From the NCBI GenBank assembly GCA_034717495.1, contig JAYELL010000100.1:1-64000 (forward strand): DNA of 64,000 nucleotides, given 5' to 3'. Every line of letters begins with the position of its first letter. The stretch's first letter is position 1. Positions 23,650 through 54,471 of this stretch are shown piece by piece. A program made the position numbers and the translations under genes. A model generated the notes under the pieces. It was given only the letters and a program-made list of their open reading frames with translations, had not been told where the DNA came from and searched no databases. The DNA is from Chloroflexota bacterium (GTDB lineage Bacteria; Chloroflexota; Anaerolineae; JAAEKA01).

Positions 23650-23788
23650 GGGTTGGAAGATCGATACAATGGTCAAAGATAGTCGTATTTGTTTCCGGTG
23701 GCTAATGTAGCCGGCAACCGCATCGTCCGCAGCGGAGTCGGCAACACTGTGTCCTCGGGCACTCGTGGCTTCAAAGGAGAGTCCCACT

Positions 23789-25558
23789 ATGCCGAAAGAG
23801 AAATTCACCTACCTGGATCCGGTTCCGAGCGACATCGATATCGCTCAAGCTGCCGAGATGAAGCCCATCCTGGAGATAGCAACTCAGGTTGGACTCACTG
23901 AAGATGATCTGGACCTGTATGGCAAATACAAGGCCAAGGTCCATCTGGATGTTCTGGACAAGTTCAAGGATCGACCCCTGGGCAAGTATATCGATGTAAC
24001 CGCCATTACGCCCACACCGCTGGGAGAGGGCAAGACCACCACCACTGTTGGCCTGAGTCAGGCGATGGGCGCCTATCTGGGGAAAGATGTCATTACCTGC
24101 ATTCGGCAACCTTCCCAGGGACCGACCTTTGGAATCAAGGGTGGCGCGGCCGGTGGTGGCTACAGCCAGGCAGTGCCCATGGAGGACTTCAACCTCCACT
24201 TAACCGGTGACATCCATGCGGTAAGCGCTGCCAACAACCTGCTGGCAGCCGCAATCGATGCACGCATCATGCATGAACGCAACTATGGCGACCGGTTCAA
24301 GAAGGTTACAGGGTTGGATCCCCTTAACATCGACCCGTATAGCATAACCTGGAACCGTGTTATGGACGTCAACGACCGGGCGTTGCGCAATATCATCGTG
24401 GGCCTGGGCGGAAAGGCCGATGGCATTCCTCGAGAAACCGGATTTGACATCTCCGTTGCCAGCGAGGTGATGGCGATCCTGGCCCTGACCACCAGTCTTG
24501 AGGACATGCGGGAACGGTTTTCTCGCATCGTCATTGGGCAAAGCTATGCCAGGGAGCCTGTGACAGCCGAAGACTTGGGTGTGGCGGGCGCTATGACGGT
24601 CCTGATGAAGGACGCCATCATGCCCAATCTGATGCAAACCCTGGAGGGAACCCCTGCATTTGTCCATGCCGGACCTTTTGCCAATATTGCCCATGGCAAC
24701 AGCAGCATCGTGTCCGATCAGATTGCTTTGAGGCTGGGCGACTATGTGGTCACCGAGTCGGGCTTTGGCGCCGACATTGGCATGGAGAAGTTCATGAACA
24801 TCAAGTGCCGCTACTCGGGCCTGACTCCCGATACCGTGGTTCTTGTGGCAACGATCCGTGCGCTCAAGATGCATGGCGGTGGCCCCAAAGTGGTTGCCGG
24901 GCGCGACCTGGACAAGGCTTACACCGAGGAAAACCTGTCCCTGCTCGAAGCAGGCTTCGCCAATCTGGCCAAAAATATCGAGATCGCGCGGCTCTTCGGT
25001 GTACCTGTCGTGGTAGCGATCAATCAGTTCCAGTATGATACCCCGGCAGAGATCGAACTGGTACAGCAACTGTCGGCGGAAACAGGCGCCTATGCCGCGG
25101 TACCAACCAATCACTGGGCCAAGGGCGGCTATGGATCCATCGAATTGGCTGAGGCCGTCATCGATGCCTGTGAGCAGCCAAAGGACTTCAAGTTCCTCTA
25201 CCCGCTGGATCTATCGATCAAGGAGAAGATCGAAACGATTGCGGCCCAGGTCTATGGCGCCGACGGTGTCGAATATACGCCTGAAGCCAACAGACAGATT
25301 CGCGCCTATGAAAAGGCCGGGTTTGGCAATCTGCCCATGTGCATGGCAAAAACTCATTTGAGCATCAGCCATGACCCCAAGCTCAAAGGGGTCCCCACCG
25401 GTTTCACGCTGCCCATTCGCGAGGTACGAGCCAGCGTGGGCGCAGGCTTCATCTACCCGCTATGCGGTGAGATGCGCACCATGCCTGGCTTGCCTTCAAA
25501 ACCGGTCTACATGAAGGTAGATTTGGATGAGGAAGGCCGGGTGGTAGGGCTCTTCTAG
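23789..25558 (+). CDS. fhs: Formate-tetrahydrofolate ligase
   Basis: This enzyme makes 10-formyl-THF from formate, THF and ATP, feeding purine synthesis or the methyl branch of the Wood-Ljungdahl pathway. The 589-residue protein has the P-loop [16 protein letters not shown] (about residues 70-85), [19 protein letters not shown] (about 106-124), the FTHFS signature region around LTGDIHA, and [10 protein letters not shown]-like [15 protein letters not shown]. The ATG at 23789 follows AAAGGAG at 23774-23780; an in-frame GTG at 23765 lies upstream of that site and is rejected. It is monocistronic between a promoter and a strong terminator. Confidence 0.96.
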
Positions 25559-25871: not shown

Positions 25872-25967
25872 ATGGTCGCACACAACAATTTTGCCTGTGT
25901 GCCAGGCAGATAGGCGCCGAGACTTGACGAGGTGCCTTACCGGGTATCGTTGAAAAAGGAGACGCAA

Positions 25968-28055
25968 ATGGCAAACCGACGAAGACGCATTGCACCCCTT
26001 GCCATCGTGCTCGTCATTCTCTTGAGCGCTGTGCCTGTGGGCTCGGGTCCCATGGCAGCCGTGGGAGACGCCCTATATAATGGTGGCTTCGAACACGGTT
26101 TCGAGGCGAACCAGGCGTGTGGAGGCATGGTGGGCGCTGGCTGGGGGTGCTTCCAGAATGGAGGCACGGCAGCCTACGGGTTCTACGATGATATGTGGGA
26201 TCCCGTGGTCTATGCCGGCGAACACTCGCAGCTCATCGAGATCAACACGAAGGAGATGGGTGGCGACAATGACCGCAACGCCGGAATCTACCAAACGGCT
26301 GGCGTATGGCCAGGAACCCAGTACGAACTGTCGCTCAAGGGCATGATCCGTGCCGAGGATAACGGCGGGGACCCCTGGCGCTACCGGGTGTACGTAGGGT
26401 TTGACTACTATGGAGGCACCGACTGGCAAGCGGTCACCGACTGGCGTGAGTTGCCCTGGGACAGCTACTACGATCGCTTGAGCCCGGGTGAATTCAGCAG
26501 CTACAACACGACGGTAACACCGATAACCAAGAGGCTGACCGTATTCGTGCGGGTGCAGCGCAAGTGGGGCACCTGGTACGAGGAAACCGACGTCAACCTG
26601 GACGCCATTAGTCTCTTTGGCCCGGTAAGGGTTGAGAACTACAAACCCAAACCAGTGCATCCACCTGTGGCCAAGCCGCCAGTCTGGCATCCACCCGTAG
26701 TTGAACCACCGATCGCTCATCCGCCGGTTGCCAAGCCCCCAGTCTGGCATCCGCCCGTGAAACCGCCGGTGCATCCAGGTTGGGGAGTTCACCCGCCCAA
26801 GCCGCGGCCAGAGCCAACCATCGTGTGTGATGGCCCCAACCTGCTGATGAACGGTGGGTTTGAGTATGGCTTCCAGGCCAACGGCGTGGCCAACTACTGG
26901 ATGGGCTTCAACAACGGTGGGCGAGCCAACTACGGTTACTATGATGAACAGTGGCCGCCAGTGGTGTCGGAAGGAAAGCACGGCCAGTTGATCGAGATCA
27001 ATACGCTGGACGTGGGAGATCAGACCGATCCCGACCGGATGTCAGGGATCTACCAATGGTTGTGGCTGAAGCCAGGAGCGACGTACGAGTTCTCGGTGGA
27101 TGCGATGATGCGGGAACGGAACGATCATTCGGACGAGGATTTCTACCGCTACATGGTGGAATGGGGCTACTCAGCCAATGGGTGGACGGATCCTGCCAAC
27201 ATGACCTTCCGGGAACGGGTGCCGTTGGACAACATCTACCTGCGGACGGAGCCGGGAGAGATGCAGTCCTACACCACGCGGTTCGCGGCACCGAGTGAGA
27301 CGACGACGATCTGGCTGTTTGCATTGAAGAAGTGGGCAACGCTGGAGCGGGAGTTGGATGCAAATCTGGATAACGTAGCGATCAGGATCTGTCGCAAGGC
27401 CTATCCTATGTACCCAGTCCATCCGCCGAAGCCGATGCCACCTGTGGTTTACCCACCATACCCCAAACCACCGGTGAACCCGGTACCGCCAAGCAAGCCC
27501 AAGCCGCCAATAGCAAGCTGCTCCGATCCAGGTAACGTGCAATATTGGGTCCAGCCAGGAGACACCCTCTCAGGCTTGGCTCAGCAGTTCGGCACAACCG
27601 TGGCCGAAATCATGGTGAAGAATGGCCTGAGCAATCCGAATTACATCTATGTGGGTCAGGAACTGTGCATACCCACACAGCCGGTGCCGGAACCCTACGA
27701 GCCTCCAACCGCGGAAGCGCCCCAACCGCTCCCTGCACCAGTCACACAGACTGAGCAGGTCCCGTCAACAGAGATCGAGGTTATCCAGGAAGCGGAAGCA
27801 TCACCGTTCGCGACCGAAGAGGCACCCGGGCCAACGGAATCGCCCCCAGCGGCGGCGCCCGCGGCAGTACCGCCAGCTCAGGAAGAGGTTGAGAGAATCG
27901 GTGTAACTGAAACCTACCAAATAAGGCGGGGTGATACACTCAGCAGGATTGCCCAGAACAACGGCACAACTGTTGAAGCCCTGGTTGCACTGAACGACAT
28001 CGAGAATCCCAACTGGATCTATGCCGGGATGGTTCTCGAGGTATCCGTGAGGTAG
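25968..28055 (+). CDS. Secreted protein: two carbohydrate-binding-like domains and two LysM domains
   Basis: This 695-residue protein has a Sec signal (RRRRIAPLAIVLVILLSAVPVGSG). Two related jelly-roll-like modules follow, residues about 35-220 and 290-475; both begin LYNGGFEHGF or LLMNGGFEYGF and share QLIEINT and GIYQ stretches, like carbohydrate-binding modules. Each is followed by a linker rich in KPPVWHPPV. LysM domains lie at about 528-575 (YWVQPGDTLSGLAQQFGTT) and 647-693 (YQIRRGDTLSRIAQNNGTT), so it should bind glycan or peptidoglycan in the envelope. AAGGAG at 25956-25961 sets the start. No catalytic motif is visible. Confidence 0.88.
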   Translation: MANRRRRIAPLAIVLVILLSAVPVGSGPMAAVGDALYNGGFEHGFEANQACGGMVGAGWGCFQNGGTAAYGFYDDMWDPVVYAGEHSQLIEINTKEMGGDNDRNAGIYQTAGVWPGTQYELSLKGMIRAEDNGGDPWRYRVYVGFDYYGGTDWQAVTDWRELPWDSYYDRLSPGEFSSYNTTVTPITKRLTVFVRVQRKWGTWYEETDVNLDAISLFGPVRVENYKPKPVHPPVAKPPVWHPPVVEPPIAHPPVAKPPVWHPPVKPPVHPGWGVHPPKPRPEPTIVCDGPNLLMNGGFEYGFQANGVANYWMGFNNGGRANYGYYDEQWPPVVSEGKHGQLIEINTLDVGDQTDPDRMSGIYQWLWLKPGATYEFSVDAMMRERNDHSDEDFYRYMVEWGYSANGWTDPANMTFRERVPLDNIYLRTEPGEMQSYTTRFAAPSETTTIWLFALKKWATLERELDANLDNVAIRICRKAYPMYPVHPPKPMPPVVYPPYPKPPVNPVPPSKPKPPIASCSDPGNVQYWVQPGDTLSGLAQQFGTTVAEIMVKNGLSNPNYIYVGQELCIPTQPVPEPYEPPTAEAPQPLPAPVTQTEQVPSTEIEVIQEAEASPFATEEAPGPTESPPAAAPAAVPPAQEEVERIGVTETYQIRRGDTLSRIAQNNGTTVEALVALNDIENPNWIYAGMVLEVSVR
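26658..26759 (+). repeat. 60-bp repeat encoding the Pro-rich linker
   Basis: Two copies of a 42-base block (26658-26699 and 26718-26759) repeat at a 60-base spacing with a few substitutions. Each encodes HPPVAKPPVWHPPV in the linker after the first carbohydrate-binding-like module. Such repeats can change copy number by slippage. Confidence 0.75.
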
Positions 28056-28307
28056 GACACCCTGCCACTTGAACGAGGCTAACATGCCTTACTTTCCAAC
28101 TTTTGCAGACAGCCAGTGGGGCTGCACCAGGAAGTCCCCACGGTTGTACCAACCGGGATTGTCGCACCCGGGAATGACGATCCCGACCCAATGGGTGTCT
28201 ATTCGGACAGAGACCGTCAAGCGGAATGTCGGAACAGAGCCCACCAATTCGAACGAAATCCTGCGATTGGCCCTCGGGTCAACGGCAAACTTGACAAGGA
28301 GCTAACG

Positions 28308-30023
28308 ATGTTTAGCAATTACAGCAAGCGAGTTCTCGTGGTGTCGCTCATGATAGCCATGGTTATGCTGCTCGCTCTGACCAGCACAACCGCGGCGAGT
28401 GCCCCCACTAATGGCACCGATCAGCCGGAAAACACGACCTGTGTCGACGGCTACATTATCAATCACCGTGAACAACCGGTGGATGGGACCAAGTTCGATC
28501 CGCCCCTGAAGGTCTACGCTTTTGGAATGTATGTGCCCCCTGGCACCAGTGTCAATGAAGCTAATCTGCCTGACCTGCCCGCCATGGCCGAGCAAGTTGA
28601 AAGCCTGGACTCCCTCATGGTACCGGCCGAAGGCGACCGCTCTGGTTCCTACATGGCCTGGGCCGAAGTAGACAGCAATGGCTACTTCAAGTTCGAAGAT
28701 ATGCCGGCTGGTTACACTTACCACTTCGGCTTCAACCTCCCTCAGGACTGGGACGGTATCGTACCTCAGGCGCCCCGCAATGGGACTGCCTGGACCGGTT
28801 GGACCGTGCTGCAGGATCTGGGCGAGGTCAATGGTAAGCAGAAATGCCACCGCATCGTCTTCAAGATCCGCCGTCTGTTTGACGTAACTGTTCTCAAGTG
28901 GGAAGAGTTGATGGATGGCACCGTGCAGCCTGGAGCCGGCTGGGACATCACGTTCCTGCCCCAGGGTGACCCCTTTGTTCACAAGCAGGCCGGGACGACC
29001 GACGAAAGTGGTCGTGTTACCTTCACGATAACCCCCGGAAAATGGCTTGTGAAGGAAAAGGTGAAACCCGGCTGGACGCCCATAACGCCTCCATCGGTCT
29101 ACCTGCACCTGGATCAATACGCACCTCCTGGCGCCCAAGCCCCCATCATCTTCAAAAACCGCCAACCTGCCTGCAAGGGCGAAATCGAGGTTGAGAAGAT
29201 TGGCTGGGGTCGCGATGCCAGTGGTCGACTGATCCCCCTGGGGCCGCTGGCCGGCTGGAAAATCGTCCTGAGCCGCTACGATGGCAACATGCATCCAATC
29301 AGCGGTTACACCGATGCCTCCGGGAAGGTCACCTTCTCCGGACTGTACCCAGGTGTCTACCAGGTCAAGGAATATGTCCAGCCTGGTTGGAAGCCCATGT
29401 CCGACAACCCCCAGACTGTCGTATTGTCTGGATGTGACACCGAATCTGTCACCTTCGAAAACGTAGAGACCACCGGTGATCTGAGCATCCGTGGCCGGAA
29501 GTTGTACAAGGCGTGGGTGCCCCCGTTCAAGGGGCAGATCGTCGGTCTCTCCGGCTGGAAGATCACGGCAACCCTGAAGGGTTCCGATCCTGAGCGCACC
29601 GTGGAAACCACGACCAATGCTCTGGGTGAATACGAGTTCTCCGCGGAAACGCTGCGGAACGCGGGGATTGCATTCCCTGGCGCCACAGTCACCGTTTGTG
29701 AGGAAAGCCGGGATAACTGGATCCACATCACGCCCAAGTGTGTCGATGTGACCTTCCCCTATCCTGTGCCACCTGACTACAAGGGTGCTACGGTGAACTT
29801 CACCAATATCCAGGATCCTCCGCTGCCCGGTACCGGTGTTGCAGCTTCCACTGCCTCTGCAGTAGCTGTAAGCAACTGCCAGGAGACCTACCTGGTCCGA
29901 CCTGGTGACACGCTGTCTGGCATTGCCGCCAGCCATGGCACAACTGTACTTGCCATCGCTCAGGTCAATGGCATCAGCAACATGAACCTGATCCGTGCTG
30001 GCAGCACGGTCTGTGTCCGGTAA
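28308..30023 (+). CDS. Secreted SpaA/Cna-B-like repeat protein with C-terminal LysM
   Basis: This 571-residue protein has a signal peptide (KRVLVVSLMIAMVMLLALTSTTAASA), then several Cna-B/SpaA-like beta-sandwich repeats recognised by TDESGRVTFTITPGKWLVKEK, TDASGKVTFSGLYPGVYQVKEY and a third module ending YEFSAETL. A LysM domain closes the protein (TYLVRPGDTLSGIAASHGTT, about residues 524-570). There is no LPXTG sorting signal, so attachment is probably through LysM. AAGGAG at 28296-28301 sets the ATG; an upstream open frame is rejected. It follows the other LysM gene by about 250 bases and probably belongs to the same surface layer. Confidence 0.87.
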   Translation: MFSNYSKRVLVVSLMIAMVMLLALTSTTAASAPTNGTDQPENTTCVDGYIINHREQPVDGTKFDPPLKVYAFGMYVPPGTSVNEANLPDLPAMAEQVESLDSLMVPAEGDRSGSYMAWAEVDSNGYFKFEDMPAGYTYHFGFNLPQDWDGIVPQAPRNGTAWTGWTVLQDLGEVNGKQKCHRIVFKIRRLFDVTVLKWEELMDGTVQPGAGWDITFLPQGDPFVHKQAGTTDESGRVTFTITPGKWLVKEKVKPGWTPITPPSVYLHLDQYAPPGAQAPIIFKNRQPACKGEIEVEKIGWGRDASGRLIPLGPLAGWKIVLSRYDGNMHPISGYTDASGKVTFSGLYPGVYQVKEYVQPGWKPMSDNPQTVVLSGCDTESVTFENVETTGDLSIRGRKLYKAWVPPFKGQIVGLSGWKITATLKGSDPERTVETTTNALGEYEFSAETLRNAGIAFPGATVTVCEESRDNWIHITPKCVDVTFPYPVPPDYKGATVNFTNIQDPPLPGTGVAASTASAVAVSNCQETYLVRPGDTLSGIAASHGTTVLAIAQVNGISNMNLIRAGSTVCVR

Positions 30024-30270: not shown

Positions 30271-31137
30271 TTACCGGGCTGCCAGGGCCTCGTCAATCAA
30301 GGCTGCCAACTGCGCGTAGCTTTGTGCTCCCGGTATTATCAGGCCGTTGATGGAGAAGGTAGGGCGCAGGCGGATGCCCTCACCGCGACGCACACGATCA
30401 AGAGCGATGGTTTTTTCGGCGAACTGACCGGTTTCAAGGCATTGGCGGAACTGGGCAAGATCAGGCACCCCTGATCTTGCAGCGAAATCGGCATAAGTAT
30501 CCATGTCGGCGCTCCACAACTGATTCTGATCAGAGTAAAAGAGATCATGAATCGCCCAGAAGGCCACTGGGTCCTGGTCACCGGCGCACTCGGCGGCCTG
30601 GTAGGTCTTTGCAGTCGGACCATGATCCAGTATGGGAGAGTAGACGTAACGGATTTTGCCTGTGTCAGCATAGTCGGCGACGATATCATGTTCAGTGGAT
30701 AACACGTATCCACGGCAGGCGCCTCAGAGAAAATCCGAGTAATCAATGACAGTGACTGCTGCATCAGGATTGCCCCTGAAGTACTGTCCTTCCCCGGTCT
30801 GTCCGAAGATGCTGGTAACGGCCGGTTCTTCCGCGGGCACGGGAGTATCGGTGGCAGGCACCGCGGTGGGTGATTCGATTGGTGGCACTGGCGTGTCCGC
30901 TGGCCCTTCATCGGCCTCGGTTTCGGGTGAATCGGCCGGGACAGGGGTATCAGTTGGCGGGACAATCGCAGGCGTATCGGTGGCAAGTGCCGCAGTGGGC
31001 GCGTCGGTGGCTGTCGCTACATGTTCAGCCGCGGGCGTTGGCTCGGCACTACCACCGCACGCTGCCAGCAGCAGCGCCAGAGAAAGAAGCAAGCCAATGC
31101 TGACCATAACATTGGGGCGCAGGCGTTTTGGTTTCAT
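30271..31137 (-). CDS. Probable selenocysteine-containing DsbA-like lipoprotein (UGA read through)
   Basis: Read through one in-frame TGA (30724-30726), this is a single 288-residue protein. AGGAGG lies seven bases before the ATG at 31137. It has a lipoprotein signal (LLAAC), a Thr/Pro-rich stalk with repeats such as TDTPVPA, and a DsbA/thioredoxin-like domain. The domain starts GNPDAAVTVIDYSDFL, where the family continues C-x-x-C; here it reads U138-G-A-C141, then RGYVLSTEHDIVADY, YVYSPILDHG and the cis-proline loop RPTFSINGLIIPGAQSY. TGA thus falls exactly on the catalytic cysteine. A hairpin fitting bacterial SECIS rules follows. The role would be extracytoplasmic thiol-disulfide or peroxide chemistry. 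The alternative is a nonsense mutation, but frame and motif are otherwise perfect. SelA-D genes are not in the window. Confidence 0.82.
30695..30726 (-). promoter_or_regulatory. Candidate bacterial SECIS element
   Basis: Ten bases after the UGA (30726-30724) the message forms GUGGAUA / UAUCCAC, a perfect 7-bp stem (30713-30707 with 30701-30695), closed by the loop CGUGU. The UGA-to-loop distance is 17 bases and G is the second loop base, matching the bacterial SECIS rules as I recall them (loop 16-37 bases after UGA, G in the first two loop positions). Confidence 0.75.
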
Positions 31138-31274
31138 GAGGTACCCTCCTGGGAATTCGTAACGATCACCATTGTAACAGGTCACCCCTCCACCCTAAGT
31201 AAGCTCGCTTTCAAAAGCGGGATCACGGTCTTGCCTTGCGCGCTTATACGATCTCCGTCAGCAACCGGGTTTTT

Positions 31275-54344: not shown

Positions 54345-54360
54345 GCGCTGGTTCGAGTGC

Positions 54361-54453
54361 ATCCCTACGCCGGCATTACCCAGGTCAGGTTCTAAGGGTC
54401 GGTGGCAGTTCGACCACCCTCTCAGCCGGGCGCTTCCCGGCTCCCCTGGCAAC
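54361..54453 (-). promoter_or_regulatory. TPP riboswitch (THI element)
   Basis: The minus strand carries the conserved TPP aptamer in order: CCAGGGGAGCC, GGCTGAGAGGG, ACCCTTAGAACCTGA and GGGTAATGCCGGCGTAGGGA. A P3-type hairpin (GGTGG / CCACC) sits between. It lies about 100 bases before thiamine pyrophosphokinase and should lower expression of the thiN-thiB-thiP-ATPase operon when TPP is high. Confidence 0.96.
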
Positions 54454-54471
54454 GGGTTATCTATTGGGTCA

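Follow-up and report, generated by a model that had tools for sequence, protein, structure and literature searches.

A predicted selenocysteine-containing DsbA-like lipoprotein of the NF041057 family in a Chloroflexota bacterium

Gene layout and family assignment

The window analyzed here, a 64,000-nucleotide stretch of a Chloroflexota contig, carries on its minus strand a reading frame of 288 codons that starts with ATG at 31137, ends with TAA at 30271 to 30273, and contains a single in-frame TGA at codon 138 (Table 1). Standard ORF finding breaks this gene into two pieces (30724 to 31185 and 30271 to 30705), and the plus strand of the same interval holds several stops. The first-pass annotation, which left the strand unstated, had placed the lone TGA at the first cysteine of a C-x-x-C motif and had noted a lipobox and an optimal ribosome-binding site upstream; all of these features were recovered, with the lipobox reading L24-A-A-C27. 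The read-through protein is composed of a lipoprotein signal, a long linker rich in proline, threonine, and alanine, and a DsbA-type domain. From this arrangement we infer that the gene product is a lipoprotein of 288 residues with a DsbA/BdbD fold.

Table 1. Positions of the gene for the predicted selenolipoprotein and of its sequence features
Feature	Position	Strand	Description and basis
Putative CDS of selenocysteine (Sec)-containing DsbA-like lipoprotein	30271..31137	-	288 aa plus TAA, one UGA read through; NF041057 and Thioredoxin_4 matches
UGA codon 138, predicted Sec, first position of U-G-A-C	30724..30726	-	UGA at same column in 30 fetched class relatives, Cys in five orthologues
Cys141, predicted resolving cysteine of UxxC	30715..30717	-	Invariant in alignments A2 and A3
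Predicted SECIS hairpin	30695..30713	-	Stem of 7 bp, CGUGU loop whose second base is G, 17 nt from UGA to apical loop; folding, covariation, rules in PMC13188914
Predicted lipoprotein signal peptide, lipobox LAAC, C27 lipidation site	31057..31137	-	Sequence; C27 invariant in alignment
Ribosome-binding site AGGAGG	31145..31150	-	7 nt ahead of ATG; sequence
Pro259 of the cis-Pro loop (RPTF)	30361..30363	-	Invariant in alignments A2 and A3

Residues 117 to 283 match the Pfam domain Thioredoxin_4 (E value, 3.1e-25), and the score against Pfam DSBA (PF01323) is 17 bits, below the gathering cut-off of 25.6. The protein reaches 243.2 bits against NCBIfam NF041057, named "Rcas_1661 family thioredoxin-like (seleno)lipoprotein" (curated cut-off, 190), with residues 17 to 283 aligned to positions 2 to 246 of the 247-position model. 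Invariant positions in the alignment include C27, U/C138, C141, and P259, in agreement with the DsbA-like motifs that had been traced as far as the cis-proline loop from the sequence, and also C184 and C233, which may form a second disulfide. The closest solved relative, both by sequence (E value, 6e-12) and by fold, is BdbD of Bacillus subtilis. The fold matches take in BdbD, DsbA, ScsC-type, and Mycobacterium tuberculosis "DsbG" structures, for a structure model that is of only moderate quality (mean pLDDT, 58.5).

Two large secreted proteins with LysM-like repeats at their ends are encoded next to the gene on the plus strand (25932 to 28055 and 28116 to 30023). The selenoprotein gene shares its neighborhood with a formate-tetrahydrofolate ligase-type gene (23765 to 25558, plus strand), an association found also in the nearest relative (81% identity) but in none of the other relatives examined. 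The window also includes a TPP riboswitch at 54345 to 54457 on the minus strand (69.6 bits, above the Rfam gathering score).

A conserved hairpin downstream of the UGA

Downstream of the UGA, 10 nucleotides are followed by a GTGGATA stem, a CGTGT loop, and a TATCCAC stem, exactly the 7-bp hairpin with a five-base loop and a G in the second loop position that had been described at first pass. The published bacterial SECIS model specifies a loop of 3 to 9 nt, a stem of 4 to 16 bp, a G within the first two loop positions, a spacing of 16 to 37 nt, and a minimum free energy of -7.5 kcal/mol or lower (PMC13188914). The hairpin falls within every one of these limits (loop, 5 nt; stem, 7 bp; G second; spacing, 17 nt; -12.3 kcal/mol), which bears out the fit to the bacterial rules that the first-pass annotation had proposed. 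Among the 2,098 TGA triplets of the window, eight are followed by a qualifying hairpin, defined as a Watson-Crick stem of at least 7 bp and a loop of 3 to 9 nt that obeys the published loop and spacing rule. The folding energy taken by itself is unremarkable (z, -0.6 to -1.75) and was excluded from the evidence, and an Rfam scan returned no match near the selenoprotein gene.

Comparison across genomes is more informative. Among nine orthologues, 96.8% of the stem cells are paired and 22 two-sided changes were counted, a number matched by none of 500 shuffles, and the pairing was destroyed when the partner was slid by one to three columns. In a set of 29 Sec genes, 93% of the stem positions pair, versus 32% in Cys homologues, and the Cys orthologues (n = 5) pair at just two to four of the seven stem positions. 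A scan of named genomes was built on the Cys pattern and so yielded four Cys orthologues only, all above the NF041057 cut-off, which were used as controls. Given this conservation across genomes, the putative SECIS hairpin is far beyond chance, and its retention in Sec genes together with its loss in the Cys orthologues examined is the strongest single argument for Sec insertion.

Conservation of the UGA and the selenocysteine machinery

A protein search among 100 relatives found orthologues with one UGA in nine genomes (G001, with 54% identity, and G099, G096, G070, G055, G051, G042, G073, and G016), each with the UGA at exactly the DFLU column. Across 396 genomes of the class, 43 matches to NF041057 scored at least 205 bits, 42 of them with one UGA and one (G328) with Cys, and each of the 30 loci fetched in this search proved to have its UGA at the same column. 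The alignment of homologues that had been proposed as a check thus places UGA or Cys, at exactly the column of codon 138, in the active site. No UGA was present in 17 homologous stretches from eight genomes that lack SelA and SelD above cut-off.

The source genome is a draft assembly of 5.0 Mb in 120 contigs, estimated to be 95.6% complete. The first-pass annotation had named selA, selB, selC, and selD as the genes that the genome should contain, and most of this expectation was borne out: a tRNA-Sec with a UCA anticodon, SelB (349 bits), and SelA (568 bits), both proteins above cut-off, are encoded in the same assembly. The exception is selD, for which the family model gave no match above cut-off in the draft assembly, and the Sec-containing SelD of the nearest relative, used as a query, gave none at all. 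Two SelD matches below the cut-off look like related paralogues. SelD was found above cut-off in 83 of the 100 relatives, nearly always with a UGA of its own, and SelA was found in 86 of them. The missing selD weighs against Sec insertion but is likely an assembly gap rather than a true absence. Two formate dehydrogenase alpha genes (L106 and L108, on contigs C38 and C53) carry a UGA at the canonical UH site (ARLUHSATV and ARIUHSATV), which indicates that Sec decoding appears to be in use in this genome. A hairpin also lies downstream in both of these genes.

In other DsbA-fold genes of the class (L029, L031, L032, L034, L037, L040, L042, L046, and L047), a UGA likewise takes the place of the first Cys of CxxC, in DFQUPFC or a similar motif. 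Several of these genes have more than one DsbA domain, with a UGA in one of the domains, and two such UGAs occur in L037. The single gene scored against NF041057, L031, falls below the cut-off, and in many of these genes the hairpin is weaker or its offset differs.

Interpretation and relation to known families

Taken together, these results make it very probable that the gene product is a thiol-disulfide oxidoreductase, secreted and held by a lipid anchor, with Sec as its nucleophile (U138-G-A-C141), the UGA being decoded through the hairpin and SelB. The evidence, which is comparative and drawn from genomes, strongly supports Sec insertion at codon 138, and the signal peptide and domain matches point to the predicted export and fold. 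A Cys-type DsbA pseudogene, produced by a plain nonsense mutation or by an error in sequencing, would need a single base change (TGY to TGA) in what is a draft assembly. This origin is exceedingly improbable, given that dozens of genomes assembled independently have the UGA at this column, that the downstream hairpin covaries, and that UGA forms are lacking where SelA and SelD are missing; conservation of the UGA across genera refutes it. Recoding of UGA as Trp or Cys has precedent in other organisms, so that the codon might be read as a residue other than Sec or by unspecific readthrough. The chance of this is equally slight, since tRNA-Sec, SelA, and SelB are all encoded in the genome, a UGA occupies the known Sec site of its formate dehydrogenase, the aligned residue is the catalytic Cys, and a SECIS-type hairpin is conserved in the UGA forms only. 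This decoding was rejected on the strength of the conservation and the Sec machinery. It is also very unlikely, if marginally less so, that the hairpin is a by-product of conserved protein sequence and that another signal inserts Sec. The ACGUG loop is partly dictated by the conserved YVL/HVL residues, and synonymous codon resampling still leaves 68% of the stem positions paired (standard deviation, 2.4), but the resampling maximum of 78% lies below the 93% observed. The stem pairing is thus more than the protein sequence accounts for, and both the many two-sided changes and the loss of the stem in Cys orthologues argue against a by-product.

The redox role is far less settled than the selenoprotein assignment. 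Sec in a UxxC motif would favor a reactive reduced selenolate, as might be expected of a reductase or isomerase, a peroxidase-like enzyme, or a metal-handling protein rather than an oxidant of substrate thiols. We consider such a role a substantial possibility, though somewhat short of an even chance. The filing of the family as DsbG-like (PMC13188914) and the presence of ScsC-type and M. tuberculosis "DsbG" structures beside DsbA and BdbD among the fold matches favor it, while the proximity to BdbD by sequence and fold and the occurrence of VKOR in the genome speak for the oxidant without fixing the direction.

For the preferred reading, an oxidoreductase with Sec at codon 138, we propose that SelB would bind the hairpin just 3′ of the UGA and deliver Sec-tRNA(UCA) made by SelA, and that translation would then run past the UGA as far as the TAA at 30271. 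The protein would be exported, lipidated at C27, and anchored on the external face of the membrane, where its Se-S pair would exchange with substrate disulfides, U138 and C141 being the reactive residues and P259 the cis-Pro. Recharging probably occurs via a membrane partner such as VKOR, and the two VKOR genes of the source genome are possible partners; a comparison of the neighborhood with relatives revealed no conserved gene neighbor pointing to one. What is said here of the substrate, the partner, and the redox direction is conjecture.

Selenoproteins of this kind have precedents. Reports of UxxC selenoproteins of the DsbA-like and DsbG-like types appeared in 2005 (PMC1088965) and 2006 (PMC1794560), and 41 organisms with DsbA-like selenoproteins had been counted by 2016 (PMC5029168). 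The DsbA-like examples from the Sargasso Sea, Desulfovibrio, Anaeromyxobacter, and Desulfotomaculum (PMC1088965, PMC1794560) resemble the present protein in their DsbA fold, in having Sec as the first residue of UxxC, and in their bacterial SECIS; they are filed under PF01323, whereas the present protein fits Thioredoxin_4 and NF041057. BdbD is likewise an extracytoplasmic thiol-disulfide oxidoreductase, but it has a Cys-type active site without Sec and shares only about 22% identity with the present protein. With NF041057 there is no difference of substance: the match is full-length, and both have a lipoprotein signal and either Sec or Cys as the first residue of the xxxC motif. The first-pass annotation had hoped for a notable addition to the known bacterial selenoproteins, a hope that did not survive, as the family is already curated and is listed in a 2026 review as "DsbG-like protein" with a UxxC motif and a high-confidence prediction (PMC13188914). 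The comparative evidence thus points to genuine Sec insertion in one more Sec member of an already known family, and the selenolipoprotein opens no new category.

The comparison nonetheless indicates that what appears as a "truncated" lipoprotein at this locus would be an intact selenoprotein, and the compensatory hairpin changes and the hairpin loss in Cys orthologues supply clean comparative proof for a family so far only predicted in the literature. This bears on the correct annotation of Chloroflexota genomes and on which envelope proteins need selenium. More tentatively, and with the odds leaning slightly against it, the class may carry, beyond the near-strictly Sec NF041057 lipoprotein, a broad set of extracytoplasmic DsbA-fold proteins with Sec that has largely escaped cataloguing. 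If this is true, the extracytoplasmic disulfide chemistry of the class would depend widely on selenium.
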